From: Histomonas meleagridis | Lineage: Eukaryota > Parabasalia > Tritrichomonadida > Dientamoebidae | Direction of reading: 5' to 3' | Length of the DNA stretch: 64,000 nucleotides | NCBI GenBank assembly: GCA_020186115.1 | Contig: WSYJ01000153.1 | Location: forward strand, 405,308 to 469,307 | Part shown: positions 29,955-52,317 of the stretch, in pieces | Numbering within the stretch: the first letter of the stretch is position 1 | Layout of the letters: each line of letters begins with the position of its first letter | Notes under the pieces: model-generated | What the model was told of the DNA's origin: nothing | The model's database searches: none | What the model saw: only the letters and a program-made list of their open reading frames with translations | Program-made: the position numbers and the translations under genes

Positions 29955-29973
29955 TTTTTTTGTTTGTTTTTTT

Positions 29974-30033
29974 AACACACACACACAGCGCTATGTGAGC
30001 TTCGTGCTACGCACTCGCTCCCACTCGCGCTAC
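29974..30033. repeat. CA repeat followed by a GC-rich imperfect hairpin, copy A
   Basis: A (CA)n run at 29974-29986 is followed by about 46 bases that fold back (AGCGC...GTGAGC pairing with GCTCCCAC...GCGCT). It is far richer in G+C than its surroundings. A second copy with different stem bases lies at 30262-30326. Confidence 0.7.
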
Positions 30034-30261
30034 ATAAACTAAAGGATGAACGGCTAAAATCGATTGAATTATCATAAATCGGTTGGTTTTGATTGAAAGT
30101 AATTAAATATATTTAAATTCATGATGACATTTATTTTTTAAATGTGTGATGCATGAATCCGGCTGAGTTGTTGTTAATCCTATGTGGAAAGTTGTAAATT
30201 CTATGTCGAATGTTGTGTTTTGATGTAAAAAGTACTGTTTAAAATTGAAAGGTGAAAATGT

Positions 30262-30326
30262 CACCACACACACACACACAGCGCTATTGAAGCTTCGCGT
30301 GATACGCTCGCTTCAAGCCGCGCTAC
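30262..30326. repeat. CA repeat followed by a GC-rich hairpin, copy B
   Basis: Same layout as copy A: (CA)n, then AGCGC, then a fold-back arm TTGAAGC pairing perfectly with GCTTCAA, then GCGCT. Where copy A pairs GTG(GG)AGC, copy B pairs TTGAAGC, so both strands of the stem changed together. Confidence 0.7.
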
Positions 30327-30625
30327 ATAAAAGAAAGCATTAACGATAGAGGATGATTGAAAATTAGGATTAACGGTCACATTCAAAGATAAGCATGTGT
30401 GAAATATAATCCTAAATAGTTACTTGTAACGTAACGTTACCTGTAACTTTGACAATTTGGAAAAAAGAAGAAGAATAAAGAACATGAGATGCAAAAACCA
30501 AGGTTACGTTACGTTACAGGTTATAAATTAAGCTTAGTGTTGAAGTAGTAATTTGATTTTTTGATTGAAAGTAATAAAATATATTTAAATTCATGATGAC
30601 ATTTATTTTTTAAATGTGTGAGGCA

Positions 30626-30629
30626 TGAC

Positions 30630-30660
<31 letters not shown>

Positions 30661-32064
30661 AAAAGTTATTAGCTAAAGGAAATTCGGAAAAGCTGAATGA
30701 GTTTCTCCATTTTAGTGATTTGACGTGAATATTGCATGTTTACTGGAGCTGATGATGATAACGGATGAGTTGTTGTTAATGCTACGTGGAAAGTTGTTAT
30801 TAACTGAGGTTGTGAATGTAAAAAGTACTGTTTAATTTTCAAAGGTGATTTTTTAACCCTTTTTTTGAACCCTCAACGAAACGGAGAAAATAAGCATTTT
30901 TTGAAGGATTTAACGCAAAAGTTGACGGTTGATATATCGGTAAGAATTTGTTGTTAATCCTATGTGGATTTTAGTGTTTGGAGCTTAAAGTTGTTATTAA
31001 CTGAGGTTTTGAATGTAAAAAGTACCTTTTAATTTTCAAAGGTGATTTTTTAACCCTTTTTTTGAACCCTCAACGAAACGGAGAAAATAAGCATTTATTG
31101 AAGGATTTAACGCAAAAGTTGACGGTTGATTTATCGGAAAGAATTTAGTGTTTTGATGTTAATCCTATGTGGAAAGTTGTGTTTGGAGCTTAAAGCTGTT
31201 ATTAACTGAAGGTTTTTATCAAAAAAGTACCTTTTAAAAATCAAAGGTTAAAAAATCACTTTTTTTTAACCCTCAACGAAACGGAGAAAATGAGCATTTT
31301 TTGAAGGATTTAACGCAAAAGTTGACGGTTGATATATCGGTAAGAATTTGTTGTTAATCCTATGTAGATTTTAGTGTTTGGAGCTTAATGACAAACTAAC
31401 TAACTAACTAACCTAACAAAAAAAATTCGAGAAAGCCTTTTCGTAAAAGTCTATATATTTTTGAGGTTGAATTCTAACTTGATGATTTGACGTGAATTTT
31501 GCAAGTTTACGGGAGTTAATGACTATAAGCTAACGGAAAAGGCTTATTTCTATGTTGAATGTTGCATTTACTGCTTCAAACTTGTAATTTTCAGCTGATT
31601 TGACACAATCAAAAATGATGATGCCTCAGATATGACTGTTTTTGAAAAGTCTTTCTCGAATTTTTTTTGTTAGGTTAGTTAGTTAGTTAGTTTGTCATGT
31701 ATAAAAATAAATATTAATATCAGTACTGCTTTTCAAAAAATTCTTTCGTCAACTTTTGCGTTAAATCCTTCAATAAATGTTAATTTACTTCGTTTCGTTG
31801 AGGGTTCAAAAAAAGGGTTAAAAAATCACCTTTGAAAATTAAAAGGTACTTTTTACATTCAAAACCTCAGTTAATAACAACTTTAAGCTCCAAACACTAA
31901 AATCTACATAGGATTAACAACAATCCATCCGTTATAGTCAACAACTCCCGTAAACTTGCAATATTCACGTCAAATCACTAAAATGGAGAAACTCACGGAA
32001 CAATTTTTGAGTTTCGTTTAGCTAGTTTCGTTTTTAGTTAGTTAGTTAGTTAGTTAGTTTGTCA
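30626..32064. repeat. Foldback element with ATGACAAACTAACTAAC ends, left copy
   Basis: The ends are inverted copies of TGACAAAC(TAAC)n. Inside, a series of blocks (GATTTGACGTGAATATTGCA, then TTAACTGAGGTTTTGAATGT, then AACCCTCAACGAAACGGAGA) occurs as direct copies on the left side and inverted copies on the right. A smaller foldback (31389-31696) with ends TGACAAACTAAC...CCTAAC is nested in the middle. No protein-coding frame. Mirrored at 50,209-51,665. Confidence 0.8.
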
Positions 32065-32204
32065 TGTATAAAAAATAAATTCATGTCCGACTCACATATC
32101 AAACGAATCGCAAAAATTATGTACTATTCAATGCTTATAATTTCATGTTTTAAAATTGATGACATCATAAATTTATTTTTAGATTTTTGTAATTAACACT
32201 TAAA

Positions 32205-32790
32205 AATTGAACAGCGTAAACTTGTTTCATTCGTGTGTGATAAGTGATTTGTCGATTTTAGCAATCAACGATGATAAATTGAACGAACGTAAACTTGTTT
32301 CAAATAATGTTATATCATTCGTGTATAGTAATTGAATGTGTCGAATGTTGCAATAAACGATTGTAATTCAACGAACGTAAACTTGCTTTAAAATAATGAT
32401 ATATCATTAATTCCTTTGTCGAATGTTGTAACAAATGCTGATAAATTGAACGAACGTAAACTTGTTTTAAAATAATGATATATCATAAATTCCTTTGTCG
32501 ATATAAGCATAAACGCCTTAAATCAACATAGTCATTAATGTTTTTCATTGAATCCTTTGTCGAACTTTGCAAAAACACTGATAAATTGAACGAACGTAAC
32601 TTGTTTCGTTCGTATTGAATCGTAAGTGATTTGCAAATTTTGAGCGTTTGATGCTTAAAAATTGTTGTTTTAAAATAATGATTATTCATAAACTCCTTTG
32701 TCGAACTTTGCAAAAACACTGATAAATTCAACGAACGTAAACTTGTTTTAGTTCACGTGAGTCGTTAATGGTTGTGTCGATTTTAGATTT
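32205..32790. repeat. Iteron-like array (GAACGAACGTAAACTTGTTT), left copy
   Basis: At least six imperfect copies of a 70-90-bp unit contain GAACGAACGTAAACTTGTTT, often followed by AATAATGATATATCAT and CCTTTGTCGA. The array lies just downstream of the primase-helicase gene. Similar units recur at 37,370-37,660 and 39,190-39,260. Confidence 0.7.
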
Positions 32791-32844
32791 TTTTTTAAAT
32801 AATGAGGTAGCAAAGTAACCGGTAATTTTTATATTAACAGTATA

Positions 32845-33210
32845 GTGTCGGAGACCTCCGACATCCGACATGAATTTTGATTTGTGACTTGTTACTGTTA
32901 CCAGCACATTTTACAGAATTCTGTTTATAAGAATAAATTAACAGAAGAAACAACAGACAAAAACAACTAGATGAAAGAATAACAGAAGAAACAAGAATAT
33001 AATACTTATAAATGTACTGTTAAATGAAGGTATCAAATGCTGTTAATTTTGTTACCGCTATTGTTACCATCACCTTTAACAGTAATTATAGAAAACAATG
33101 ACTCATTCAAATCAAAAACAGCAAAGAAAACTCCGATTCACACATAATTGACTTTGAAAATTGTTACCATCACCTTTAACAGTAATTATAGAAAACAATG
33201 ACTCATTATT
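32845..33210. repeat. Hairpin and duplicated 45-bp segment near the primase-helicase end
   Basis: GTCGGAGACCTCCGAC (about 32,849-32,864) is a perfect inverted repeat with a 2-base loop. It is followed by ATCCGACATGAATTTTGATT, a context shared with 37,749-37,810. Further on, the segment GTTACCATCACCTTTAACAG with about 25 more bases occurs twice (about 33,063-33,107 and 33,161-33,206). Confidence 0.65.
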
Positions 33211-33260
33211 TAGAATCATTAACTTTTATCATTAAATTCAAAAAATAATTACAATATAAT

Positions 33261-35666
33261 TTATCTCTTAACATCAAACTCTCCATTAAATTCTTCATTA
33301 AATTCTTCGTCGATTTTTCTTTCTATAAAATACACGTGTATTTCTTCCAAATATTTTATACTGCATTTTATAAATTTCTTTTTCCATCAGCTCTCTTTCA
33401 AATGATTTCTTACTTAGTTTAAAACGATCCTATTTTTGAGTACTGAACGTATAACCGGTTCATTTCTGATACTGTTATATATTCTATTTCTTCGTCATGA
33501 TATATTGCATTCTTCCAACATTCTTGAATATCATCAAGGAAATCTTCAAGTGGCGATTCTTTAATGCCTCTAAGTTGATTTTTGAACAATCGACGAGTCG
33601 TAACGGTCAAATAAATTTCTTTTCACAAAATCATTTAGATCTAAAGACATTAAATAATTATATAAAGATAATGGAAAATTAATGTTGTCAATAACATCTT
33701 TATCCTTAACAAATTCAGATTCAAAAATACTTCTTTCTTTAAATCTTATTATACAAAATCTTGACAGCAAGGCTTGATCTCCTGAATTCAACATACCGTA
33801 TAAATCCGCGTGATTTGTGTTTAATACGTCGATGGCAAAATCATTTTCTTGGCGTGTATCACGATTCATCGATCGCACCGTTTGTGAGTTATTAGTCAAT
33901 CGTTTGATGATATTATTAGTTGTTTTATTTGAATAATTATCAGTTGAAAACTCATCATAAGAACGATAAAGCTTTTTGGCAAAACCACCGTTGTGCTTCT
34001 CACTTAGTTGTAGTTCATTTATTCCGACTAAGGCAAAATCTCGATAAAGTTTTTTTGAATGAATTGTCGATATATGTTTTTCCAGAATTTCCGGTTGAAG
34101 AATATTTAATAAAGAATACTGGAGCTTTTTTACGAAACTTTAAAGTAAAAGCTGCTATTTTAAGTAGATGATGAAAAGCTTTTATTGCTTCATCATCAAA
34201 AAGTTGATCTTCAATTAATTGAATCCATTTACTAATAAGATCAGGTTTATCTTCTATTGAGGTATAACTCATTGTGATTGAGGGAGCTCTAAAGAGAGAG
34301 AAAATTTTGTCATCATCGCCAATAACTTCAAATTTAACAAAACTTTTGAATCTATCTCTATTCTTAACGTTTCGTAATTCTTTAAACAAAGATATAGTTT
34401 TTGTGTCTGAAATCTTTTTATGCCTTTTACGCATCAGTTCTTTTTCTTCGTTTGTTGTTGGCAGTGTGATGTCAAAATTGAAATAATTCTGAAGTGATTT
34501 TGAATCTAAAATTTGAAAATCAATTTTTTCCATCATTGAAAACTTTAATAATATAATCTCCCCAATCAGTGAACGCCAAACATTTTATAAGGTTATTTAT
34601 ATAGTCATCAACTGTTGAAAAACTAATCATTTCTTTCAAATAATCAGAAAAACAGTATTTAGAATTTAAAAACTCATCTTTAGAAACATTATTTTTTTTA
34701 ATTAACGGCAATATAAATTTATTATAATAATCATTATTATGAATTTTTAATATCTTTAATAACACGCCATGATGTTTAGATTTTTTATTTCTATTTCTTG
34801 CTATTTGTTCAAAGAATTTATTTTTTAGCATTAACTGTTAAATCAGCTGTTTCATAAATTTTCATAAACGCATCGTTTATTAAATCGCGATTGATTGTTT
34901 CACTTTCAAAAGAATTAAAACCGCAAATTACAGGAAGCAGAGAAATTTCTTGATCTACTGATTTATTGCAGTCGTTGTGGATTTCAAGATTTTTTAAAAC
35001 CATTAACTAAAGCATTAAATAATTTTTAATTCATTCTCTGGATTTCTTTCTTCTGTTTCTTCTTCAAATAATTCTTCGCTCCGAAGGAGCTCAGGCTTGA
35101 AGAGCCGTTCATTAAAATTCAATTCTTCATTAAAAACAGTAACTTTTTCGTTTTGTTTCTCAATCAAACTTTCAAAATCAATTCCAATCTCATCAAAAAG
35201 TATATTTTTTTAAATCATCAAAAGTCATTAATTCATCATTATTGCAATCGTTTATTAATATATACTCACCAATAACTCCATCGTGATTCTTTGCTTTACT
35301 TCCCGGTAATACTACTATCGATCGTTTCTCTCTATCTATCGGAACGAATAAATCAACATCGAACAATTCACAACTGAAGCATTTAATAAATCTATTCTTA
35401 TTTAAAGACATCGATTGATCCCAAAAACTATAAATATGAATTCCTCCTGACGCAGTTTTTACAATTTTACACTTATTAAAAGCTTTAGAATTAAAAAGAT
35501 TTCAAAACTTCTTCTTGTTCACATTTAACGTCTATATCAACAATCGCGTACGGCGATAAATTAGCAAGTAAAGCTTCTCCGGTTCTTTTTCCGATCTTTA
35601 CTCCATCGTGTTTTTTCATAATTACGCAAAGTGATTTTTGTCACCTATGAATGTATCGTTATTCAT
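33261..35666 (-). pseudogene. Primase-polymerase / SF3 helicase fusion, left copy
   Basis: About 800 codons on the minus strand, in fragments because of single-base shifts. N-terminal archaeo-eukaryotic primase (PrimPol) motifs: VDIDVK, SGGIHIY and FDVDLF. A linker follows, then a superfamily 3 helicase with Walker A SSTGNSGKT, Walker B SYDEF, the sensor motif VLNTNH and an arginine region SGDQALLSR. This is the D5-like replication protein layout of large DNA viruses, some phages and plasmids: the primase part starts DNA synthesis and the helicase part unwinds. This arm keeps a 333-bp middle segment (about 34,402-34,735) missing from the right arm. One frameshift in a T run (near 35,195) is in both arms; others are arm-specific and lie in homopolymers. 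The stop at 33261 needs a final frameshift. Confidence 0.85.
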
Positions 35667-35755
35667 ATTCTTTTTAATGCTGCTAAAAAAGTAATTACAA
35701 CATTAAAACTAAGCTTAATTACAAAACATATTTTTTTTTTTTTTACGACTAATAA

Positions 35756-36027
35756 ATGGAAACCATTAATGATATTAATAACACAGAAAATAACAAAAAA
35801 CATAGATTAACAAAAAATCAAAAAAGATTGTATATTGATTTTCTAATGCGAGATGATATAAAAGAAATTTTTAAAAACAATTCCAAAACGTTCACAATTG
35901 AATTTTTTTAAGAGAAGCTTTTGAAAAAGAAACTGGAATTAAAATATCTCGTCATATAGCTTATTTAATAAAACCTGATAACATACCAACAGTTATTTAT
36001 GGAGGTCAAACTTATATTGTGTGTTAA
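35756..36027 (+). CDS. Small hypothetical protein of the element, left copy
   Basis: About 90 codons with one frameshift in a T run (near 35,910). It begins METINDINN, has a basic stretch (HRLTKNQKRLYIDF), then FKNNSKTFTIEFF, and after the shift REAFEKETGIKISRH, ending GGQTYIVC before TAA. The short basic helices and small size could suit a DNA-binding protein, but no family is recognised. It is transcribed away from the primase-helicase gene, 90 bp upstream of it. The right copy has lost the ATG and gained a long A run. Confidence 0.5.
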
Positions 36028-36117
36028 ATATTATTTTTGTCAACGCTCAAAAACACATCTTGCATTAACGTTATCATCAGCTTTATCATCATCAGCTTTA
36101 TCATTCAACGAAAGCAT

Positions 36118-36870
36118 TAATTAAAGAACTCTCGACACATCATTTTTGTTCTTATCATTCAACGAAAAGCATTAATTAAAGAACTCTCGACACATCATTT
36201 TTGTTCTTATCATTCAACGAAAAGCATTAATTAAAGAACTCTCGACACATCATTTATGTTCTTATCATTCAACGAAAAGCATTAATTAAAGAACTCTCGA
36301 CACATCATTTATGTTCTTATCATTCAACGAAAAGCATTAATTAAAGAACTCTCGACACATCATTTATGTTCTTATCATTCAACGAAAAGCATTAATTAAA
36401 GAACTCTCGACACATCATTTTTGTTCTTATCATTCAACGAAAGCATTAATTAAAGAACTCTCGACACATCATTTTTGTTCTTATCATTCAACGAAAAGCA
36501 TTAATTAAAGAACTCTCGACACATCATTTATGTTCTTATCATTCAACGAAAGCATTAATTAAAGAACTCTCGACACATCATTTTTTGTTCTTATCATTCA
36601 ACGAAAAGCATTAATTAAAGAACTCTCGACACATCATTTATGTTCTTATCATTCAACGAAAAGCATTAATTAAAGAACTCTCGACACATCATTTATGTTC
36701 TTATCATTCAACGAAAAGCATTAATTAAAGAACTCTCGACACATCATTTATGTTCTTATCATTCAACGAAAGCATTAATTAAAGAACTCTCGACACATCA
36801 TTTTTGTTCTTATCATTCAACGAAAGCATTAATTAAAGAACTCTCGACACATCATTTTTGTTCTTATCAT
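36118..36870 (+). repeat. Tandem repeat, about 14 copies of 55 bp, left copy
   Basis: The unit contains AAAGAACTCTCGACACATCA, then TTTTTGTTCTTATCATTCAA, then CGAAAAGCATTAATT. It repeats about 14 times with lengths of 54-56 bases and small differences (TTTTTG or TTTATG; one A more or less). Flanks are short CATCAGCTTTAT repeats. It separates two element genes. The right arm has only 11 copies. Confidence 0.92.
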
Positions 36871-36948
36871 CAGCTTTATCATCAGCTTTACATCAACGCC
36901 AAATTTATTAATTTTAAATTATCATTTTATAATTTTATTTTTATATAA

Positions 36949-37350
36949 ATGGAGTTATTAATTCCAGAAGAATTTTTAAGATATAATATATCATTTTGTT
37001 TTGAAGATGAAGAATTCACTAACGCAAACACTATTATAGAAAATATATTTAGAATTTACGGCAAACAAAATTTTATAGAGTTTTACTTCGACTTTGACGA
37101 ATCACAAACGTTTGACAATATAGTGTATCGCATTAGAATAAAGAACATAAAATTTGGTGATTCAAGCATAACGTTTGAAATTCCCGTTTATATTTACGTT
37201 ACTAACACAAAGCATAGAACGCTGACAAAGAACAATAACAAAGTCGTTTATTTTACAAAAACTATGAGACGTTCAGGAATGAAGATGGAGTCGTCATTAA
37301 ATATTATTATTATTATTTTAGTTGAAAAATCACTAATTAAAAATCAATAA
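36949..37350 (+). CDS. Hypothetical protein of the element, left copy
   Basis: The frame starts MELLIPEEFLRYNISFCFED, is acidic and aromatic-rich, and continues with beta-like segments (IEFYFDFDE, SSITFEIPVYIYVTNT). In this arm a lost A near 37,262 shifts the last 32 codons. The right copy ends instead after 125 codons in YYYYYFS, which is more likely the true end (corresponding to 37,326 here). No family recognised. TTTATTTTTATATAAATG directly precedes the start, like the leader of the HNH gene and the central gene. TCATTTTA at 36922-36929 resembles an initiator. Confidence 0.6.
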   Translation: MELLIPEEFLRYNISFCFEDEEFTNANTIIENIFRIYGKQNFIEFYFDFDESQTFDNIVYRIRIKNIKFGDSSITFEIPVYIYVTNTKHRTLTKNNNKVVYFTKTMRRSGMKMESSLNIIIIILVEKSLIKNQ

Positions 37351-37359
37351 TGAATACGT

Positions 37360-37660
37360 TGATTTAAAACATGTGGATTTAAGCGCGAACGACTTAAAAA
37401 TACTTCTTATGTTTACTTATATGTTAATCCTATGTCGATTTTAGCATCAAATGCATAAAAATACTTCTTTCATTCTGTGAATATGTTAATCCTCTGTCGA
37501 TTTTAGCATCAAACGCATAAAAATTGAACGAACGTAAACTTGTTTCATTCACTTTATATCAATAACGAATATGTCGATTTTAGCATCAAACGCATAAAAA
37601 TACTTCTTATGTTCGTGTTATATCAATAATGATTTCGTCGATTATAAAATTACTGTTAAA
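37360..37660. repeat. Dispersed TGTCGATTTTAGCATCAAACGC repeats, left copy
   Basis: Four units of 60-80 bp combine a TGTCGATTTTAGCAT segment, CAAACGCATAAAAAT and a TACTTCTT or GAACGAACGTAAACTTG end. They relate to the array at 32,205-32,790. Confidence 0.65.
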
Positions 37661-38025
37661 ACATAAGGCGGTATGATTCGACCACCATCAATTTTTTTAA
37701 AATTCTTTTGGTAACAAAGTAACAAGTCACATTCATACTCTATAAAAGTGTCGGACGACGCCGCCTTCCGACATGAATTTTAATTTGTAACTTGTTACTG
37801 TTACCGTTAAGAACAACAACAGAAATAGCATAAAAATACTTCTTCATTTACTGATGAATAACTAATGAAATCGTTAATCCTTTGTCGAAACTAATAATTA
37901 CCTCTTAAAAATACTTCTTCATTTACTGATGAATAACTAATGATACGTCGATTATAAAATTACTGTTAAAACATAAGATGACAGGATCCTGTCGCCATGA
38001 ATTTTTTAAATTTTATGACACTGTG
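37630..38025. repeat. Conserved flanks around variable GC-rich cores, left copy
   Basis: Two copies of ATAAAATTACTGTTAAAACA and a few more bases on the left, and AT(C/G)AATTTTTTAAA on the right, enclose different cores of the same length: 19 bases at about 37,672-37,690 and 19 at about 37,979-37,997. The second core contains the perfect palindrome GACAGGATCCTGTC. A related hairpin with GTCGGA...TCCGAC arms lies at about 37,752-37,774. Confidence 0.65.
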
Positions 38026-38093
38026 CAATTTTGCACACCCTTGATTTTAAAGTTAATTTTAAATCATTAATGTAAATTTTTACTGATTATAAA

Positions 38094-38391
38094 ATGAGTA
38101 AGTTAACAGTTGACCGCAAAATAAAATACGAAAGAATCAAGTGATAGATTTTATCGTTTGGTATGATACATTGAAAGATAGTTTAAAAAAATATGAGCCG
38201 TTCAAAAATTCAAGAGCTTTATTTAAATGACTCTGGCGTCGTTGTCTCAAATAATTTTTGTAGCACAAATATTTAAAAACGACTATTTGATAAAGGGTAA
38301 TAAAGTTTATAGGTTATATGGCTTGATTAATGACGGCGTTAATGAAAACAAAGACGGAGAGAATGAAGAAGAAGACAAAGAAATACATTAA
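38094..38391 (+). pseudogene. Small hypothetical gene of the element, broken, left copy
   Basis: The frame starts MSKLTVDRK and breaks in an A run. It continues as VIDFIVWYDTLKDSLKKYEP, breaks again, and the last part reads MTLASLSQIIFVAQIFKN then DYLIKGNKVYRLYGLINDGV with an acidic tail (NEEEDKEIH) and TAA. In the right arm the second break is replaced by an in-frame TAA immediately followed by ATG, so the last 56 codons could be a gene of their own. No family recognised. Confidence 0.4.
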
Positions 38392-38501
38392 CGAAAAGGA
38401 TTATTTTGAAACGTGTCAAAACAAGAATTTTTTAGTGTGAATGACAAAATTAATTGAAAAATATAATTGAAAAATATAATTGAAAAAATATAACTTGTAA
38501 A

Positions 38502-39057
38502 TTAAACGAAGCCATAAATTTTCTTAAATTTTGCATAATAAATCCTGACTTGTTTATTATTTATGTCGCGTGCATTGACGAAAGCATAACTGCGCTTATT
38601 ATAACAGATTGTTAATTTTCTGAACTGTAAACCGTTCCAAAAGTAAAACGCGTCTGTTTCGTCGTCATAGTAATAATCCTCAAATTGATAATTATTATAC
38701 TCTCTAACTTCAATTGAATCTTCATTGATTTCATCAAAATACTCAAAATCTTTCCTATATGATGCTCTATTCTTTGAATTTTCTGAAGCAGAAACCCAAC
38801 GGAGATTATTAATGTTATTATTAGTTTTATTATGATCTATATGATCAATAAATGGCTTATTTTTCATGATTCGGTATGAATTGTTCTGCAATGATTCGTT
38901 GTTTGAGATATACTTTGCTATTTAAGTAACATTGAACATATCCTGTATTCATTACTGATTCTTTAATAATTCTTTTATTACTTTTTCTTCGAATCTGAAA
39001 AGGAAATTCTGTGAAAATTTCATAATTACAATCACAAATACAATCAATCCAGCTCAT
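38502..39057 (-). pseudogene. NUMOD4/HNH endonuclease, frameshifted, left copy
   Basis: About 185 codons. Residues 1-45 (SWIDCICDCNYEIFTEFPFQ) resemble a NUMOD4-type module. Then comes an HNH domain: HRIIAEQFIPNHE (QRIIAEQF in this arm), PFIDHIDHNKTNNNINNLRW, SENSKNR, with the paired D-H and the N typical of HNH homing-type endonucleases. The C-terminal 80 residues (IEVREYNNYQFEDYYYDD onward) are also found in the central gene at 41,150-41,608. An extra A near 38,868 breaks this copy. HNH nucleases of this kind cut DNA, often at the site where they insert. The start at 39057 follows the leader TTTATTTATATAAAAATA. Confidence 0.85.
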
Positions 39058-39179
39058 TATTTTTATATAAATAAAAAAATTAAATTTTTTAAAAATTAAA
39101 CTTAATTTTTGAAATCTCAAAATCATTCGGAAAATGCTAAATTACTGGAGTTGTTGAGGTCGTGCAAAAATGCAGTACC

Positions 39180-39560
39180 TTATGAAACATCAACCGCTTA
39201 AAAATGAACGAACGTAAACTTGTTTCAAAAATAATGATATATCATAAATTCCTTTGTCGAATGTCGCATCAAACGCTTAAAAATACTTTATCTGTTCGTG
39301 TTTTTTCATTAACGACAAACGTAAATTTGAAACAAGTATTTTTAAGTGTGAATGACTTAAAATTTGATATTCAGTAATTACAAAAACAATAATGAAAATC
39401 ATTAACGACAACGTGAATTTGAAACAAGTATTTTTAAGTGTGAATGACTTAAAATTTGATATTCAGTAATTACAAAAACAATAATGAAAATCATTTAACG
39501 ACAAACGTAAATTTAAAACGTGTGAATTTAAGCGCGAAATGACTTAAAAATTGATTTCGC
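39180..39560. repeat. Dispersed repeats with ATTAACGACAAACGTAAATTTG, left copy
   Basis: A block with GACAAACGTAAATTTGAAAC, then AAGTATTTTTAAGTGTGAAT and GACTTAAAATTTGATATTCA occurs in two long copies (about 39,310-39,400 and 39,400-39,495) and one partial copy to about 39,560. A GAACGAACGTAAACTTGTTT unit precedes them at 39,203. Confidence 0.65.
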
Positions 39561-39588
39561 AATAATAATAAGATGTAAACATATTCAA

Positions 39589-39821
39589 TTACTGAATCAT
39601 TAACGACAAAACATTCGTATAATTTATTAAACGCGGATCTACGTATGTTCCTCTTAAATAGTTTTCTTTACAGAAAATCCTTTATTTAATTGATAAATTG
39701 GCTGTTTCTCTTGCTCGCCCTTTTTCGGGCTACCATAATATTCTTTGCAAAATTCATCATAAAATTCTTGCCAAGAGTGATTTTCAAAAATTGTATATAT
39801 ATTTTTTGATGATTCATTCAT
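39589..39821 (-). pseudogene. Truncated KilA-N-domain protein, one base lost, left copy
   Basis: Same 77 codons as at 42,943-43,176, but one G is missing near 39,665, breaking the frame. See the right copy for motifs. Confidence 0.6.
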
Positions 39822-39839
39822 CCGAAGTTATTTGATGAT

Positions 39840-40790: not shown

Positions 40791-40798
40791 ATAATAAA

Positions 40799-41630: not shown

Positions 41631-41726
41631 AAAATAATATTAAAAATGAACTTATCATTATATTAACATAATAGAAAATATTTTATAACGTCAACGACAA
41701 CATCAAACACTTAAATCTTCAGAGAA

Positions 41727-41968
41727 TCAAGAAATAAGATTCATTCGACACAATCATTTATTATCCGAAGATTGAATAACAAAATATAAGATTCATTTGA
41801 TACAATCATTAATGAATAACAAGAAATAAGATTCATTCGACACAATCATTAATGAAGAACAAAATATAAGATTCATTTGATACAATCATTAACGAAGAAC
41901 AAAATATAAGATTCATTCGACACAATCATTAACGAAGAACAAAATATAAGATTCATTCGACACAATCA
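41727..41968 (-). repeat. 40-bp tandem repeat, six copies, right copy
   Basis: Mirror of 40,799-41,040 with the same register and the same 11-base interruption. Confidence 0.9.
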
Positions 41969-41974
41969 TTTATT

Positions 41975-42930
41975 ATCCGAAGATTGAAGAACAAGAAACT
42001 TGTAAAATCAACATTCACGTTAATGAGTCATTGAATGATATGTGGAAATGAGTCATTTATGCTCAAAAATTGTTGTTTTAAATCAATTTCTAACGTTAAT
42101 GATTATTAACAGCTCACGTAAACACTTAATATTCGTGTGAAATCATCTGAACGGAGAAACTCAATCGTCAATTTGAAATTTCCTTTAGCTAATCGCAATA
42201 TTACCTGGTAACTACCTGGTATATCAAGTTATCAGGTAGTATTTATTTTATAAAAAAACAAACATAGGATTAATATATATCATTCGCGTCCTTGTATTTT
42301 CTTGTCATTCTACTGAAAAATACATGTTTCTAAATTCACGTTTAGTCGTTAATGAATCATCAGCAGCTCACGTAAACACTCAATATTCACGTCAAATCAT
42401 CTGAACGGAGAAACTCAATCGTCAATTTGAAATTTCCTTTAGCTAATAACTTTTTTAGTTAGTTAGTTAGTTTGTCATTATTAAAATAATATGAAAAATC
42501 AAACATAGAATTAATAATATCATAAACGTCCTTGTATTTTCTTGTCATTCTACTGAAAAATACTTGTTTCAAATTCACGTTTAGTCGTTAATGAGACTTC
42601 ATTCATCAAAAAATATATATAAAAAATTCAAGGTTAAAAAACAAAAAAAAGTTAACCTTTCAGTAACTGCAGTAAACTTGCAATATTCACGTCAAATCAT
42701 CCGAAAAACGCTGATTTACTCGAGTTTGTAAGAGGTTAACTTTTTTCGGGTTAAAAAAATATTTTTAAAAATTAAAAGATACTTTTTACATCAAAACCTC
42801 AGTTAATAAGAACTTTTCGACACAATCACAAATGTAACATCAAGAATAAGAACTTTTCGACACAATCAATAACTTCGGATGAATGAATCATCAAGATTTA
42901 AACATCTAGCGCTCAAATCCACATATCATC
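41975..42930. repeat. Foldback-type and dispersed repeats, right copy
   Basis: Mirror of 39,840-40,790, including the CAGGTAGT hairpin (about 42,201-42,241) and the TTAGTTAGTTAGTTTGTCAT end at about 42,458-42,478. Confidence 0.65.
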
Positions 42931-42942
42931 AAATAACTTCGG

Positions 42943-43176
42943 ATGAATGAATCATCAAAAAATATATATACAATTTTTGAAAATCACTCTTGGCAAGAAT
43001 TTTATGATGAATTTTGCAAAGAATATTATGGTAGCCCGAAAAAGGGCGAGCAAGAGAAACAGCCAATTTATCAATTAAATAAAGGATTTTCTGTAAAGGA
43101 AAACTATTTAAGAGGAACATACGTAGATCCGCGTTTAATAAATTATACGAATGTTTTGTCGTTAATGATTCAGTAA
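42943..43176 (+). CDS. Truncated KilA-N-domain protein, right copy
   Basis: 77 codons starting MNESSKNIYTIFENHSWQ. The end NYLRGTYVDPRLINYTNV matches the most conserved part of KilA-N domains (GTYVHP.L...IA.W). These domains bind DNA and are common in phages, large eukaryotic DNA viruses and their integrated relatives. A full KilA-N domain would go on for some 25 residues (WISP.YA..V), but here the frame ends MIQ-stop, so the domain is cut short. It lies between the foldback repeats and the dispersed repeats before the HNH gene, transcribed in the same direction as the HNH gene. The call rests on one motif, so other DNA-binding folds remain possible. Confidence 0.55.
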   Translation: MNESSKNIYTIFENHSWQEFYDEFCKEYYGSPKKGEQEKQPIYQLNKGFSVKENYLRGTYVDPRLINYTNVLSLMIQ

Positions 43177-43179
43177 TTG

Positions 43180-43600
43180 AATATGTTTACATCTTATTAT
43201 TATTGCGAAATCAATTTTTAAGTCATTTCGCGCTTAAATTCACACGTTTTAAATTTACGTTTGTCGTTAAATGATTTTCATTATTGTTTTTGTAATTACT
43301 GAATATCAAATTTTAAGTCATTCACACTTAAAAATACTTGTTTCAAATTCACGTTGTCGTTAATGATTTTCATTATTGTTTTTTGTAATTACTGAATATC
43401 AAATTTTAAGTCATTCACACTTAAAAATACTTGTTTCAAATTTACGTTTGTCGTTAATGAAAAAACACGAACAGATAAAGTATTTTTAAGCGTTTGATGC
43501 GACATTCGACAAAGGAATTTATGATATATCATTATTTTGAAACAAGTTTACGTTCGTTCAATTTTTAAGCGGTTGATGTTTCATAAGGTACTGCATTTTT
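43180..43600. repeat. Dispersed repeats, right copy
   Basis: Mirror of 39,180-39,590: two long copies of the ATTACTGAATATCAAATTTT block and one GAACGAACGTAAACTTG unit in reverse. Confidence 0.65.
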
Positions 43601-43708
43601 GCACGACCTCAACAACTCCAGTAATTTAGCATTTTCCGAATGATTTTGAGATTTCAAAAATTAAGTTTAATTTTTAAAAAATTTAATTTTTTTATTTATA
43701 TAAAAATA

Positions 43709-44264
43709 ATGAGCTGGATTGATTGTATTTGTGATTGTAATTATGAAATTTTCACAGAATTTCCCTTTTCAGATTCGAAGAAAAAGTAATAAAAGAATTA
43801 TTAAAGAATCAGTAATGAATACAGGATATGTTCAATGTTACTTAAATAACAAATTATATCTCAAACACAGAATTATTGCAGAACAATTCATACCGAATCA
43901 TGAAAATAAGCCATTTATTGATCATATAGATCATAATAAAACTAATAATAACATTAATAATCTCCGTTGGGTTTCTGCTTCAGAAAATTCAAAGAATAGA
44001 GCATCATATAGGAAAGATTTTGAGTATTTTGATGAAATCAATGAAGATTCAATTGAAGTTAGAGAGTATAATAATTATCAATTTGAGGATTATTACTATG
44101 ACGACGAAACAGACGCGTTTTACTTTTGGAACGGTTTACAGTTCAGAAAATTAACAATCTGTTATAATAAGCGCAGTTATGCTTTCGTCAATGCACGCGA
44201 CATAAATAATAAACAAGTCAGGATTTATTATGCAAAATTTAAGAAAATTTATGGCTTCGTTTAA
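43709..44264 (+). pseudogene. NUMOD4/HNH endonuclease, right copy
   Basis: From the ATG at 43709 (MSWIDCICDCNYEIF) to the stop at 44264. This arm has an extra C near 43,764 that shifts the first 18 codons, while the remaining 165 codons are intact and show the complete HNH domain (HRIIAEQFIPNHENKPFIDH, DHNKTNNNINNLRWVSASEN). The left arm is broken at a different place, so each arm is intact where the other is broken. This suggests errors rather than true loss. Confidence 0.85.
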
Positions 44265-44373
44265 TTTACAAGTTATATTTTTCAATTATATTTTTCAATT
44301 ATATTTTTCAATTAATTTTGTCATTCACACTAAAAAATTCTTGTTTTGACACGTTTCAAAATAATCCTTTTCG

Positions 44374-44674
44374 TTAATGTATTTCTTTGTCTTCTTCTTC
44401 ATTCTCTCCGTCTTTGTTTTCATTAACGCCGTCATTAATCAAGCCATATAACCTATAAACTTTATTACCCTTTATCAAATAGTCGTTTTTAAATATTTGT
44501 GCTACAAAAATTATTTGAGACAGCGACGCCAGAGTCATTTAAATAAAGCTCTTGAATTTTTTGAACGGCTCATATTTTTTTAAACTATCTTTCAATGTAT
44601 CATACCAAACGATAAAATCTATCACTTGATTCTTTCGTATTTTATTTTTTGCGGTCAACTGTTAACTTACTCAT
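44374..44674 (-). pseudogene. Small hypothetical gene of the element, broken, right copy
   Basis: Mirror of 38,094-38,391. Two more A's early in the gene shift it. In the middle, FKKFKSFI is followed by TAA and at once by ATG, after which MTLASLSQIIFVAQIFKN runs to the end in one frame. Confidence 0.4.
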
Positions 44675-44739
44675 TTTATAATCAGTAAAAATTTACATTA
44701 ATGATTTAAAATTAACTTTAAAATCAAGGGTGTGCAAAA

Positions 44740-45410
44740 TTGCACAGTGTCATAAAATTTAAAAAATTCATGGCGACAGGATCCTGTCATCTTATGTTTT
44801 AACAGTAATTTTATAATCGACGTATCATTAGTTATTCATCAGTAAATGAAGAAGTATTTTTAAGAGGTAATTATTAGTTTCGACAAAGGATTAACGATTT
44901 CATTAGTTATTCATCAGTAAATGAAGAAGTATTTTTATGCTATTTCTGTTGTTGTTCTTAACGGTAACAGTAACAAGTTACAAATTAAAATTCATGTCGG
45001 AAGGCGGCGTCGTCCGACACTTTTATAGAAGTATGAATGTGACTTGTTACTTTGTTACCAAAAGAATTTTAAAAAATTGATGGTGGTCGAATCATACCGC
45101 CTTATGTTTTAACAGTAATTTTATAATCGACGAAATCATTATTGATATAACACGAACATAAGAAGTATTTTTTATGCGTTTGATGCTAAAATCGACATAT
45201 TCGTTATTGATATAAAGTGAATGAAACAAGTTTACGTTCGTTCAATTTTTTATGCGTTTGATGCTAAAATCGACAGAGGATTAACATATTCACAGAATGA
45301 AAGAAGTATTTTTATGCATTTGATGCTAAAATCGACATAGGATTAACATATAAGTAAACATAAGAAGTATTTTTAAGTCGTTCGCGCTTAAATCCACATG
45401 TTTTAAATCA
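44740..45410. repeat. Variable-core sites and dispersed repeats, right copy
   Basis: Mirror of 37,360-38,025, with the same two 19-base cores (GACAGGATCCTGTC palindrome at about 44,774-44,787), the GTCGGA hairpin near 44,995-45,020 and four TGTCGAT-containing units. Confidence 0.65.
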
Positions 45411-45444
45411 ACGTATTCATTATTGATTTTTAATTAGTGATTTT

Positions 45445-45822
45445 TCAACTAAAATAATAATAATAATATTTAATGACGACTCCATCTTCATTCCTGAACG
45501 TCTCATAGTTTTTTGTAAAATAAACGACTTTGTTATTGTTCTTTGTCAGCGTTCTATGCTTTGTGTTAGTAACGTAAATATAAACGGGAATTTCAAACGT
45601 TATGCTTGAATCACCAAATTTTATGTTCTTTATTCTAATGCGATACACTATATTGTCAAACGTTTGTGATTCGTCAAAGTCGAAGTAAAACTCTATAAAA
45701 TTTTGTTTGCCGTAAATTCTAAATATATTTTCTATAATAGTGTTTGCGTTAGTGAATTCTTCATCTTCAAAACAAAATGATATATTATATCTTAAAAATT
45801 CTTCTGGAATTAATAACTCCAT
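45445..45822 (-). CDS. Hypothetical protein of the element, right copy
   Basis: A 125-residue frame starting MELLIPEEFLRYNISF and ending GVVIKYYYYYFS. It is rich in aromatic and acidic residues with predicted beta strands. It is intact here, whereas the left copy is shifted by one base near its end. No family recognised. Confidence 0.65.
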   Translation of the reverse strand: MELLIPEEFLRYNISFCFEDEEFTNANTIIENIFRIYGKQNFIEFYFDFDESQTFDNIVYRIRIKNIKFGDSSITFEIPVYIYVTNTKHRTLTKNNNKVVYFTKNYETFRNEDGVVIKYYYYYFS

Positions 45823-45914
45823 TTATATAAAAATAAAATTATAAATTGATAATTTAAAATTAATGACTTTGGCGTTGATGTAAAGCTGAATGATAAAGCT
45901 GATGATAAGAACAA

Positions 45915-46510
45915 AAATGATGTGTCGAGAGTTCTTTAATTAATGCTTTCGTTGAATGATAAGAACAAAAATGATGTGTCGAGAGTTCTTTAATTAATGC
46001 TTTTCGTTGAATGATAAGAACATAAATGATGTGTCGAGAGTTCTTTAATTAATGCTTTTCGTTGAATGATAAGAACATAAATGATGTGTCGAGAGTTCTT
46101 TAATTAATGCTTTTCGTTGAATGATAAGAACATAAATGATGTGTCGAGAGTTCTTTAATTAATGCTTTTCGTTGAATGATAAGAACAAAAATGATGTGTC
46201 GAGAGTTCTTTAATTAATGCTTTCGTTGAATGATAAGAACATAAAATGATGTGTCGAGAGTTCTTTAATTAATGCTTTTCGTTGAATGATAAGAACAAAA
46301 ATGATGTGTCGAGAGTTCTTTAATTAATGCTTTCGTTGAATGATAAGAACAAAAATGATGTGTCGAGAGTTCTTTAATTAATGCTTTTCGTTGAATGATA
46401 AGAACATAAATGATGTGTCGAGAGTTCTTTAATTAATGCTTTTCGTTGAATGATAAGAACAAAAATGATGTGTCGAGAGTTCTTTAATTAATGCTTTCGT
46501 TGAATGATAA
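45915..46510 (-). repeat. 55-bp tandem repeat, about 11 copies, right copy
   Basis: Mirror of 36,118-36,870 with 11 rather than 14 units. The 163-base length difference equals three units. Confidence 0.92.
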
Positions 46511-46580
46511 AGCTGATGATGATAAAGCTGATGATAACGTTAATGCAAGATGTGTTTTTGAGCGTTGACAAAAATAATAT

Positions 46581-46852
46581 TTAACACACAATATAAGTTT
46601 GACCTCCATAAATAACTGTTGGTATGTTATCAGGTTTTATTAAATAAGCTATATGACGAGATATTTTAATTCCAGTTTCTTTTTCAAAAGCTTCTCTTAA
46701 AAAAATTCAATTGTGAACGTTTTGGAATTGTTTTTTAAAATTTCTTTTATATCATCTCGCATTAGAAAATCAATATACAATCTTTTTTTTTTTTTTTTTA
46801 ATCTATGTTTTTTGTTATCTTCTGTGTTGTTGGTATCATTATTGGTTTCCTT
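46581..46852 (-). pseudogene. Small hypothetical protein of the element, degraded, right copy
   Basis: Mirror of 35,756-36,027. The start codon is replaced (GAAAAGG instead of AATGG), and a run of about 17 A's on the coding strand (near 46,784-46,800) replaces part of the basic region. The frameshift in the T run is the same. Confidence 0.5.
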
Positions 46853-46944
46853 TTCTTATTAGTAAAAATATTAAAAAATATGTTTTGTAATTAAGCTTAG
46901 TTTTTAATGTTGTAATTACTTTTTTTAGCAGCATTAAAAAGAAT

Positions 46945-49013
46945 ATGAATAACGATACATTCATAGGTGACAAAATCACTTTGCGTAATTATGAAAAACA
47001 CGATGGAGTAAAGATCGGAAAAAGAACCGGAGAAGCTTTACTTGCTAATTTATCGCCGTACGCGATTGTTGATATAGACGTTAAATGTGAACAAGAAGAA
47101 GTTTTGAAATCTTTTAATTCTAAAGCTTTTAATAAGTGTAAAATTGTAAAAACTGCGTCAGGAGGAATTCATATTTATAGTTTTTGGGATCAATCGATGT
47201 CTTTAAATAAGAATAGATTTATTAAATGCTTCAGTTGTGAATTGTTCGATGTTGATTTATTCGTTCCGATAGATAGAGAGAAACGATCGATAGTAGTATT
47301 ACCGGGAAGTAAAGCAAAGAATCACGATGGAGTTATTGGTGAGTATATATTAATAAACGATTGCAATAATGATGAATTAATGACTTTTGATGATTTAAAA
47401 AAATATACTTTTTGATGAGATTGGAATTGATTTTGAAAGTTTGATTGAGAAACAAAACGAAAAAGTTACTGTTTTTAATGAAGAATTGAATTTTAATGAA
47501 CGGCTCTTCAAGCCTGAGCTCCTTCGGAGCGAAGAATTATTTGAAGAAGAAACAGAAGAAAGAAATCCAGAGAATGAATTAAAATTATTTAATGCTTTAG
47601 TTAATGGTTTTAAAAATCTTGAAATCCACAACGACTGCAATAAATCAGTAGATCAAGAAATTTCTCTGCTTCCTGTAATTTGCGGTTTTAATTCTTTTGA
47701 AAGTGAAACAATCAATCGCGATTTAATAAACGATGCGTTTATGAAAATTTATGAAACAGCTGATTTAACAGTTAATGCTAAAAATAAATTCTTTGAACAA
47801 ATAGCAAGAAATAGAAATAAAAAATCTAAACATCATGGCGTGTTATTAAAGATATTAAAAATTCATAATAATGATTGACTATATCTTTGTTTAAAGAATT
47901 ACGAAACGTTAAGAATAGAGATAGATTCAAAAGTTTTGTTAAATTTGAAGTTATTGGCGATGATGACAAAATTTTCTCTCTCTTTAGAGCTCCCTCAATC
48001 ACAATGAGTTATACCTCAATAGAAGATAAACCTGATCTTATTAGTAAATGGATTCAATTAATTGAAGATCAACTTTTTGATGATGAAGCAATAAAAGCTT
48101 TTCATCATCTACTTAAAATAGCAGCTTTTACTTTAAAGTTTCGTAAAAAAGCTCCAGTATTCTTTATTAAATATTCTTCAACCGGAAATTCTGGAAAAAC
48201 ATATATCGACAATTCATTCAAAAAACTTTATCGAGATTTTGCCTTAGTCGGAATAAATGAACTACAACTAAGTGAGAAGCACAACGGTGGTTTTGCCAAA
48301 AAGCTTTATCGTTCTTATGATGAGTTTTCAACTGATAATTATTCAAATAAAACAACTAATAATATCATCAAACGATTGACTAATAACTCACAAACGGTGC
48401 GATCGATGAATCGTGATACACGCCAAGAAAATGATTTTGCCATCGACGTATTAAATACAAATCACGCGGATTTATACGGTATGTTGAATTCAGGAGATCA
48501 AGCCTTGCTGTCAAGATTTTTGTATAATAAGATTTAAAGAAAGAAGTATTTTTGAATCTGAATTTGTTAAGGATAAAGATGTTATTGACAACATTAATTT
48601 TCCATTATCTTTATATAATTATTTAATGTCTTTAGATCTAAATGATTTTGTGAAAAGAAATTTATTTGACCGTTACGACTCGTCGATTGTTCAAAATCAA
48701 CTTAGAGGCATTAAAGAATCGCCACTTGAAGATTTCCTTGATGATATTCAAGAATGTTGGAAGAATGCAATATATCATGACGAAGAAATAGAATATATAA
48801 CAGTATCAGAAATGAACCGGTTATACGTTCAGTACTCAAAAATACGATCGTTTTAAACTAAGTAAGAAATCATTTGAAAGAGAGCTGATGGAAAAAGAAA
48901 TTTATAAAATGCAGTATAAAATATTTGGAAGAAATACACGTGTATTTTATAGAAAGAAAATCGACGAAGAATTTAATGAAGAATTTAATGGAGAGTTTGA
49001 TGTTAAGAGATAA
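46945..49013 (+). pseudogene. Primase-polymerase / SF3 helicase fusion, right copy with 333-bp deletion
   Basis: The N-terminal primase part is intact here for 156 codons from the ATG at 46945: VDIDVK at residues 42-47, SGGIHIY at 72-78 and FDVDLF at 101-106, the three metal- and nucleotide-binding motifs of PrimPol. After a frameshift shared with the left arm, a linker runs to about 47,875. There 333 bp present in the left arm are missing. The helicase follows in one 220-codon frame with SSTGNSGKT (near 48,175), SYDEF, and VLNTNH (near 48,450). Two further shifts lead to a C-terminal basic part (ERELMEKEIYKMQYKIFGRN) and the stop at 49,011. As it stands neither copy is functional. Confidence 0.88.
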
Positions 49014-49059
49014 ATTATATTGTAATTATTTTTTGAATTTAATGATAAAAGTTAATGAT

Positions 49060-49460
49060 TCTAAATAATGAGTCATTGTTTTCTATAATTACTGTTAAAG
49101 GTGATGGTAACAATTTTCAAAGTCAATTATGTGTGAATCGGAGTTTTCTTTGCTGTTTTTGATTTGAATGAGTCATTGTTTTCTATAATTACTGTTAAAG
49201 GTGATGGTAACAATAGCGGTAACAAAATTAACAGCATTTGATACCTTCATTTAACAGTACATTTATAAGTATTATATTCTTGTTTCTTCTGTTATTCTTT
49301 CATCTAGTTGTTTTTGTCTGTTGTTTCTTCTGTTAATTTATTCTTATAAACAGAATTCTGTAAAATGTGCTGGTAACAGTAACAAGTCACAAATCAAAAT
49401 TCATGTCGGATGTCGGAGGTCTCCGACACTATACTGTTAATATAAAAATTACCGGTTACT
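49060..49460. repeat. Duplicated 45-bp segment and GTCGGAG hairpin, right copy
   Basis: Mirror of 32,845-33,210: two copies of the CTGTTAAAGGTGATGGTAAC segment (about 49,068-49,112 and 49,166-49,212) and the hairpin GTCGGAGGTCTCCGAC near 49,413-49,428. Confidence 0.65.
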
Positions 49461-49489
49461 TTGCTACCTCATTATTTAAAAAAAAATCT

Positions 49490-50070
49490 AAAATCGACAC
49501 AACCATTAACGACTCACGTGAACTAAAACAAGTTTACGTTCGTTGAATTTATCAGTGTTTTTGCAAAGTTCGACAAAGGAGTTTATGAATAATCATTATT
49601 TTTAAAACAACAATTTTTAAGCATCAAACGCTCAAAATTTGCAAATCACTTACGATTCAATACGAACGAAACAAGTTACGTTCGTTCAATTTATCAGTGT
49701 TTTTGCAAAGTTCGACAAAGGATTCAATGAAAAACATTAATGACTATGTTGATTTAAGGCGTTTATGCTTATATCGACAAAGGAATTTATGATATATCAT
49801 TATTTTAAAACAAGTTTACGTTCGTTCAATTTATCAGCATTTGTTACAACATTCGACAAAGGAATTAATGATATATCATTATTTTAAAGCAAGTTTACGT
49901 TCGTTGAATTACAATCGTTTATTGCAACATTCGACACATTCAATTACTATACACGAATGATATAACATTATTTGAAACAAGTTTACGTTCGTTCAATTTA
50001 TCATCGTTGATTGCTAAAATCGACAAATCACTTATCACACACGAATGAAACAAGTTTACGCTGTTCAATT
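49490..50070. repeat. Iteron-like array, right copy
   Basis: Mirror of 32,205-32,790, with at least six AAACAAGTTTACGTTCGTTC units, often next to ATTCGACAAAGGA. Confidence 0.7.
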
Positions 50071-50208
50071 TTTAAGTGTTAATTACAAAAATCTAAAAAT
50101 AAATTTATGATGTCATCAATTTTAAAACATGAAATTATAAGCATTGAATAGTACATAATTTTGCGATTCGTTTGATATGTGAGTCGGACATGAATTTATT
50201 TTTATACA

Positions 50209-51665
50209 TGACAAACTAACTAACTAACTAACTAACTAAAAAAGAAACTAGCTAAAGGAAATTCAAAATTGTTCCGTGAGTTTCTCCATTTTAGTGATTT
50301 GACGTGAATATTGCAAGTTTACGGGAGTTGTTGACTATAACGGATGGATTGTTGTTAATCCTATGTGGATTTTAGTGTTTGGAGCTTAAAGTTGTTATTA
50401 ACTGAGGTTTTGAATGTAAAAAGTACCTTTTAATTTTCAAAGGTGATTTTTTAACCCTTTTTTTAACCCTTTACGAAACGGAGAAAATGAGCATTTATTG
50501 AATGATTTAACGCAAAAGTTGACGAAAGAATTTTTTGCTAAACATAAATGATATTAATATTTATTTTTATACATGACAAACTAACTAACTAACTAACCTA
50601 ACAAAAAAAATTCGAGAAAGACTTTTCAAAAACAGTCATATCTGAGGCATCATCATTTTTGATTGTGTCAAATCAGCTGAAAATTACAAGTTTGAAGCAG
50701 TAAATGCAACATTCAACATAGAAATAAGCCTTTTCCGTTAGCTTATAGTCATTAACTCCCGTAAACTTGCAAAATTCACGTCAAATCATCAAGTTAGAAT
50801 TCAACCTCAAAAATATATAGACTTTTACGAGAAGGCTTTCTCGAATTTTTTTTGTTAGGTTAGTTAGTTAGTTAGTTTGTCATTAAGCTGCAAACACTAA
50901 AATCTACATAGGATTAACGTCAAATTCTTACCGATATATCAACCGTCAACTTTTGCGTTAAATCCTTCAAAAAATGCTCATTTTCTCCGTTTCGTTGAGG
51001 GTTAAAAAAAAGTGATTTTTTAACCTTTGATTTTTAAAAGGTACTTTTTTGATAAAAACCTTCAGTTAATAACAGCTTTAAGCTCCAAACACAACTTTCG
51101 ACATAGAATTTACAACAAAACACTAAATTCTTACCGATAAATCAACCGTCAACTTTTGCGTTAAAGCCTTCAATAAATGCTCATTTACTCCGTTTCGTTG
51201 AGGGTTCAAAAAAAGGGTTAAAAAATCACCTTTGAAAATTTAAAAGGTACTTTTTACATTCACAACCTCAGTTAATAACAACTTTAAGCTCCAAACACTA
51301 AAATCCACATAGGATTAACAACAAATTCTTACCGATATATCAACCGTCAACTTTTGCGTTAAATCCTTCAAAAAATGCTTATTTTCTCCGTTTCGTTGAG
51401 GGTTCAAAAAAAGGGTTAAAAAATCACCTTTGAAAATTAAAAGGTACTTTTTACATTCAAAACCTCAGTTAATAACAACTTTAAGCTCCAAACACAACTT
51501 TCCACGTAGCATTAACAACAACTCATCCGTTATCATCATCAGCTCCAGTAAACATGCAATATTCACGTCAAATCACTAAAATGGAGAAACTCATTCAGCT
51601 TTTCCCGAATTTCCTTTAGCTAATAACTTTTTTTTTAGTTAGTTAGTTAGTTAGTTAGTTTGTCA
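50209..51665. repeat. Foldback element, right copy
   Basis: Mirror of 30,626-32,064, again with TGACAAAC(TAAC)n ends and a nested smaller foldback at 50,574-50,882. Confidence 0.8.
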
Positions 51666-51965
51666 TGCCTCACACATTTTAAATATAAATGTCATCATGA
51701 ATTTAAATATATTTTATTACTTTCAATCAAAATATCAAAAAACTACTTCAAAACTAAGCTTAATTTATAACCTGTAACGTAACGTTACCTTGGTTTTTGC
51801 ATCTCATGTTCTTTATTCTTCTTCTTTTTTCCAAATTGTCAAAGTTACAGGTAACGTTACGTTACAAGTTAATATTTAGGATTATATTTCACACATGCTT
51901 ATCTTAGAATGTGACCGTTAATCCTAATTTTCAATCATCCTCTATCGTTAATGCTTTCTTTTATG

Positions 51966-52028
51966 TAGCGCGGCTTGAAGCGAGCGTATCACGCGAAGCT
52001 TCAATAGCGCTGTGTGTGTGTGTGTGGT
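51966..52028. repeat. GC-rich hairpin and GT repeat, copy B, right arm
   Basis: Mirror of 30,262-30,326. Confidence 0.7.
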
Positions 52029-52257
52029 GACATTTTCACCTTTCAATTTTAAACAGTACTTTTTACAACAAAATACTAAAATCCACATAGAATTTACAAC
52101 TTTCCACATAGTATTAACAACAACTCAGCCGGATTCATGCATCACACATTTAAAAAATAAATGTCATCATGAATTTAAATATATTTAATTACTTTCAATC
52201 AAAACCAACCGATTTATGATAATTCAATCGATTTTAGCCGTTCATCCTTTAGTTTAT

Positions 52258-52317
52258 GTAGCGCGAGTGGGAGCGAGTGCGTAGCACGAAGCTCACATAG
52301 CGCTGTGTGTGTGTGTT
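52258..52317. repeat. GC-rich hairpin and GT repeat, copy A, right arm
   Basis: Mirror of 29,974-30,033, ending about 20 bases from the transposase stop codon. Confidence 0.7.

Follow-up and report, generated by a model that had tools for sequence, protein, structure and literature searches.

We analyzed a 64,000-nucleotide stretch of the genome of the turkey parasite Histomonas meleagridis, a parabasalid (G000:C88:405308-469307; "the window"), which reaches the end of contig C88 in an assembly of 121 contigs totaling 43.3 Mb (C-numbers designate the contigs of this assembly). The window contains a 22.3-kb element that is probably a palindromic satellite of the Polintons of the same genome, replicating by means of its own primase-helicase and integrated, and perhaps packaged, by Polinton proteins. 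The element is real, and computation shows its structure, its family of copies, the ends it shares, the selection on its genes and the likeness of its arms. An initial annotation, made from the sequence alone, had bounded it at positions 29974 and 52317, and comparison of copies places the two element ends there to within one base. The same annotation had proposed a satellite- or plasmid-like replicon that entered the genome. The satellite-like character is borne out, but a Polinton-associated satellite fits better than an incoming plasmid, because the ends, part of the subterminal DNA, the HNH gene and the KilA-N fragment are closely related to sequences in Polintons of this genome.

Self-alignment resolved the element into a pair of arms, each about 11 kb long and inverted relative to the other, on either side of a unique centre of 596 bp. 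The left arm, a terminal inverted repeat of about 11.1 kb (29974-41085, + strand), has its end set by C74, C61, C99 and about 30 further ends; the right arm (41682-52317, − strand) was delimited by self-alignment and arm comparison. The centre (41086-41681) has no inverted counterpart; it is 99% the same in copies C74 and C4 and 79% in C38, and a centre of this type was not found in copy C61. The left terminus (29974-30036, +) consists of (AC)6 followed by a type-1 hairpin (GCGC...GCGC) and is mirrored by the right terminus (52255-52317, −), both defined by comparison of ends. A type-2 terminus with the same hairpin shape (30266-30330, +; mirror 52025-51961) is nested in either arm, some 290 bp inward of the type-1 terminus. 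In C61, one end is of type 1 and the other of type 2. The hairpin stems of the two end types are alike, with compensating changes at several pairs, so the hairpin shape seems to matter.

Besides the window copy, the family members with both ends are C74 and C61, C4 and C38 being partial; the end-bounded elements measure 21.6-22.3 kb. A helicase search recovered two arms in each of C74 and C61, further copies in C88 (the window), C4 and C38, and fragmentary ones in C13 and C2; C61 also holds an older relative, at C61:59067-60058. The C74 copy, inside a 984-kb contig, has the same palindrome and centre, two termini and two unrelated flanks; its homology begins and stops at (AC)7-AGCGCTATG on either side, the counterpart in the window being (AC)6 at 29974/29975, mirrored at 52316/52317. 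The C61 copy lies inside a 903-kb contig and has a mirrored gene order. The HNH, KilA-N and central genes were not found in it, and the core known to be common is therefore limited to the PrimPol-SF3 gene and a 125-amino-acid (aa) protein (open reading frames, ORFs, of 89 and 104 aa were not searched for genome-wide). The C4 copy is a 15.5-kb contig of element DNA only, ending within the arms at nearly mirrored positions. The C38 copy has diverged, and its right arm is broken off beside Polinton genes: on this single 27.7-kb contig (L018-L020), the satellite arm abuts an integrase, a capsid gene, PolB, an A32-like ATPase (a weak Pox_A32 match) and a DUF5906 helicase. The initial annotation had set a defined, repeated element against unrelated, scattered host genes; a chance grouping of host genes was rejected in view of the selection, the ends in common and the presence of three or more separate copies.

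The ends of the element, (AC)n plus hairpin and about 180-215 bp at 95-98% identity, are those of Polintons in the same genome. In the terminal 182-184 bp, the Polinton ends L026 and L030 are 95-98% identical to the element; for L030, another 559 bp match at 97.7%. The end sequence ACACACACAGCGCTATG has 110 matches in the genome with no more than two mismatches (reversed control, 1). Among the 100 of these matches that were listed, 13 facing end pairs were matched by hand, and 12 were retained after removal of C27 as a fold-back. Among the matches listed, the integrase, the major capsid protein (MCP) and PolB all lie within the end pairs of C11, C53, C82 and C99; C75 contains integrase and MCP, C36 MCP and PolB, and C114 PolB only. 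The end pairs of C61, C74 and C88 contain PrimPol-SF3 without integrase, MCP or PolB, and those of C1 and C8 contain no match to any of the four. The element-type end pattern bounds the Polintons C99, C53, C82 and C11, and it also precedes C1:1352704. The satellites (21.6-22.3 kb) are close in length to the four Polintons with all three genes (22.8-24.3 kb). A 5-bp target site duplication, ATTCA, is present on both sides of C74 (chance for one comparison, 0.0025), and CCTAC is duplicated at Polinton C99 provided that its (AC)8 is taken to be AC + (AC)7 (chance for one comparison, 0.00035). Polintons elsewhere are said to make 6-bp target duplications.

Genes for Polinton mobility and particles were not detected in the copies. 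None of the 73 genome matches of the C38 rve integrase lies inside the C74, C61 or C88 elements (93/93 candidates scored). Likewise, the 11 PF03175 matches and 58 local PolB matches, and the 85 matches to the local double-jelly-roll MCP (80/123 candidates scored; the search did not extend to very different MCPs), all lie outside these three elements. We thus rejected a Polinton proper, as the initial annotation had done, and class the element as trans-dependent. It has the ends of an autonomous element without the integrase of that element, as is the case for trans-mobilized non-autonomous elements.

The element has a replication gene of its own. The PrimPol-SF3 helicase gene is split over several frames in the left arm (33274-35661, −; bounds approximate, mirrored from the right arm) and broken in the right arm (46945-49013, +), where it is about 324 bp shorter. 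The predicted fold of a homologue matches the pRN1 PrimPol, followed by NrS-1/D5, and decided in favour of the proposal that PrimPol and SF3 occur in the same gene. The PrimPol assignment follows from this fold match; by profile, Pfam gave no family and PHROGs a weak match, to a primase only (E 0.0016). Sequence searches of the PDB with two helicase pieces gave no match at E up to 1, and 41 stretches of viral contigs fitted a pattern in a scan with the helicase alignment, none of which was confirmed. The 125-aa ORF, to which no function is assigned, changes frame near its end in the left arm (36949-37350, +) and keeps its frame in the right (45445-45822, −). Its dN/dS is 0.15 between the C38 and C4 copies, and that of the central ORF is 0.08 between C38 and C74; values were 0.08-0.22 in 6/6 comparisons between copies, covering five genes. 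The satellite genes, including the PrimPol-SF3 replication protein, are therefore under purifying selection.

An HNH nuclease and a KilA-N fragment, both named in the initial annotation, are indeed present. The HNH_3 endonuclease gene extends over two frames in the left arm (38502-39141, −) and is likewise not in one frame in the right (43625-44264, +); the HNH of the element is 71-74% identical to genes inside Polintons C99, C82 and C11. The KilA-N fragment, in two pieces on the left (39592-39827, −; right copy 42937-43173, +), shares 74% identity with a section of a longer frame adjoining PolB in C116. The unique centre contains an ORF with a 170-aa frame (41150-41662, −), the C-terminal half of which is paralogous (26-41% identity) to the C-terminal region of the HNH proteins.

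In C74 and the window copy, the two arms are more like each other than like those of the other copy: the mismatch between arms is 0.61% in C74 and 0.47% in the window, against 2.66-2.91% between the window and C74. The arms of C4 differ by 1.06% from each other, which is more than they differ from the window arms (0.51-0.88%). The arms of C74 evolve together, with polishing bias as a caveat; C74 is the clean case because the right side of the window is doubtful. The inverted repeat in the window extends, by self-alignment, from 18326 to 63865 around the same centre, 11.6 kb into the flanks on each side (18326-29973 and 52318-63865; 18-64 kb). The flanks adjoining the element have 0/3884 mismatches and six gaps between the two copies; those further out have 19/7649 mismatches, located on the left side at 18355-21525, which in the right copy is the part towards the contig end; 18/21 outer gaps are in homopolymers. 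Because the flank copies are near-identical, the contig ends there and C27 is similar near its own end, this outer palindrome is probably an assembly fold-back, although it may be a very recent real inverted duplication. In C27, the ends lie at 472159+, 474264+, 476083− and 478192−, in a contig of 481982. The same flank identity and the resemblance to C27 are what speak for the whole palindrome being an assembly product, the true element being a single 11-kb arm plus centre. This is very improbable, since C74, within its 984-kb contig, shows a terminus on either side, a target duplication and flanks unrelated to each other, C61 has mirrored gene order within 903 kb, and the subterminal stretches of the window differ between arms at 51/2116 sites, so that two arms exist. 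A true 45-kb chromosomal palindrome forming part of the element was rejected: the C74 flanks are unrelated, and the outer flank of the window is near-identical with mostly homopolymer gaps. C73 was tried as the source of the right flank that the window copy lacks, and its first flank bases do not duplicate the left flank.

Could the element instead be a Polinton derivative formed by internal deletion, non-autonomous, with the Polinton's own helicase and an inverted duplication that arose by chance? The ends, HNH gene and KilA-N pieces common to Polintons, together with helicase relatives on the Polinton-gene contigs C101, C42, C86 and C92, would agree with such an origin. We nevertheless consider it unlikely: those relatives are 24-36% identical, whereas homologues of the satellite helicase form a set of their own at 30-88% (taken irrespective of whether they are Polinton-borne); the 125-aa gene is without a relative (E ≤0.001) in the six MCP-bearing end-bounded elements, its nearest non-satellite match (46%) being at C99:254468, outside the C99 end pair; and the same palindrome recurs in at least three separate copies. 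Slightly less probable still is a self-standing linear replicon or virus-like plasmid, integrating rarely, that gained Polinton ends by recombination without involvement of the Polinton integrase. PrimPol proteins replicate plasmids such as pRN1, the fold match noted above, and the C4 contig consists of the element only. C61 has no target site duplication, which favours such a replicon and weighs against a satellite inserted by Polinton proteins. However, C74 has clean ends and a duplication of 5 bp, the length found at a Polinton, and the near-mirrored stops of C4 inside its arms are what a broken contig would give.

For trans-integration, the mode of replication and packaging, we infer the following course for a palindromic Polinton satellite. 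The primase-helicase of the element would replicate it in linear form, together with a polymerase that either the host or the Polinton supplies. A displaced 22-kb single strand could then fold into a panhandle, with the arms as stem and the centre as loop, and this folding, with repair, would make and maintain the palindrome and homogenize the arms. The rve integrase of the Polinton would recognize the shared ends and insert the element in trans. The inverted duplication would bring the DNA to about Polinton length, so that Polinton capsids may carry it. We advance more tentatively, as a possibility that we would not favour outright, that this is the first Polinton satellite: a lineage that retained no more than a primase-helicase replicon and acquired Polinton ends, and that is a near-perfect palindrome since a half-genome of 11 kb is doubled by snap-back replication to the length of a Polinton capsid's content.

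The satellite resembles the Polintons of its genome in termini, hairpin type, HNH gene and length, and its 5-bp duplication is as in C99, the one Polinton tested. It differs in the lack of a detected integrase, PolB and capsid gene, in consisting almost entirely of an inverted repeat and in having its own PrimPol-SF3. The predicted model of the helper Polinton MCP has the mavirus MCP as its best Foldseek match (E 2e-12), and the local Polintons appear to belong to the Metamonada MCP group of Polinton/Maverick elements, the capsid genes of which are described by Bellas et al. 2023 (PMC10120064); the main text of that paper contains none of the terms Histomonas, palindrom and non-autonomous. Transpovirons, as presented in PMC7031253 and PMC11071308, are capsid-less parasites of giant viruses. 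They share with the satellite a linear replicon without capsid genes, a helicase gene, inverted repeats, central tandem repeats and dependence on viruses of protists. By these accounts, however, they are about 7 kb long, with repeats of 380-520 nt and a pPolB-SF1 helicase, whereas the satellite, at 22.3 kb, is integrated and palindromic, with arms of about 11 kb and a PrimPol-SF3 by fold (no search was aimed at pPolB-SF1). A transpoviron was rejected because size and repeats do not fit; the helicase that was detected is of another type. Some Polinton-like viruses are described as carrying AEP-S3H replication proteins (PMC11071308), the same type as in the satellite, in which no capsid gene of the local Polinton type was detected.

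Aimed literature searches did not retrieve a Polinton satellite; they covered titles and abstract openings, with subscription papers and preprints thinly represented, so its absence from the literature is weakly supported. Symmetric defective adenovirus genomes illustrate that protein-primed linear DNA can become palindromic, one end being duplicated inversely around a short unique centre at near full genome length. The satellite differs from these: its family is stable and inherited, selection acts on it, and its core genes do not obviously come from a helper. A literature search on palindromic adenovirus genomes gave no useful paper among those listed.

The arms contain several tandem arrays. 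A subterminal array of 197-bp units (30790-31388; mirror 50883-51521) has related DNA at Polinton ends. A 55-bp array with the iteron-like core TGTGTCGA has 14 copies in the left arm (36098-36870, +) and 11 in the right (45902-46510), and a 40-bp array (40797-40994, +; mirror 41773-41970) has the same core, which is thus present in arrays of differing period; a 92-bp array lies at 39306-39555 (mirror 43210-43460). The counts of TGTGTCGA are 22 for the left arm, 19 for the right arm and 20 for copy C74, against one occurrence in 30 kb of the left flank, one in the right flank and two in 40 kb of other host DNA. These arrays would fit a candidate binding site for the replication protein, but the C38 copy has no TGTGTCGA, which argues against a conserved role. 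The 89-aa ORF of other copies is broken in the window (35756-36025, +; mirror about 46590-46862), as is the 104-aa ORF (38078-38391, +; mirror about 44374-44687), both with approximate bounds; the small ORFs gave weak matches only in Pfam and PHROGs.

Several observations concern other elements and the flanks. C1:553250-560015 (6.7 kb) and C8:273042-277663 (4.6 kb) are likely further non-autonomous relatives of Polintons; the C8 element has no target site duplication. A capsid-gene match at C99:283886-285322 begins at the outer edge of the right end of the C99 Polinton, which may have inserted into the capsid gene of another. In C114:263277-306706 (43 kb between ends) and at the C25 and C34 contig ends, an HNH gene lies about 0.5-1.2 kb inside each end. 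The 5-mer ATTTG adjoins the ends in C25 (contig end) and C34 (contig start), which could be halves of one insertion, and also in C30. The 11 PF03175 PolB matches (C17, C36, C98, C16, C21, C89, C54, C23 and C85; longest frame remarked, 1980 aa in C98) lie elsewhere than nearly all local Polinton PolB matches and perhaps represent a second PolB-bearing family. A Tc1/mariner remnant in the host flank, outside the element (28596-29954, +; mirror 52336-53693 in the fold-back, with DDE_3 at E 3e-13 on the mirrored copy), has a frame that stops about 20 bp short of the element terminus. Tandem arrays of 170-bp units occupy 26484-28194 and 54095-55804; their peptides are, we presume, ankyrin-like, and the period is no multiple of three, so each unit may hold an insert (by decay, or an intron).

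Polintons are held to be virus-like, yet, to our knowledge, there is little record of their particles or parasites. A satellite that combines Polinton ends with genes under selection would be a genomic sign of a second element exploiting Polinton replication and integration. It would be one more type of hanger-on, next to virophages, Polinton-like viruses and transpovirons, with trans-integration and palindromic replication testable in a protist. If the more tentative reading, of a first Polinton satellite, is true, the Polintons of H. meleagridis would be active viruses with parasites of their own.

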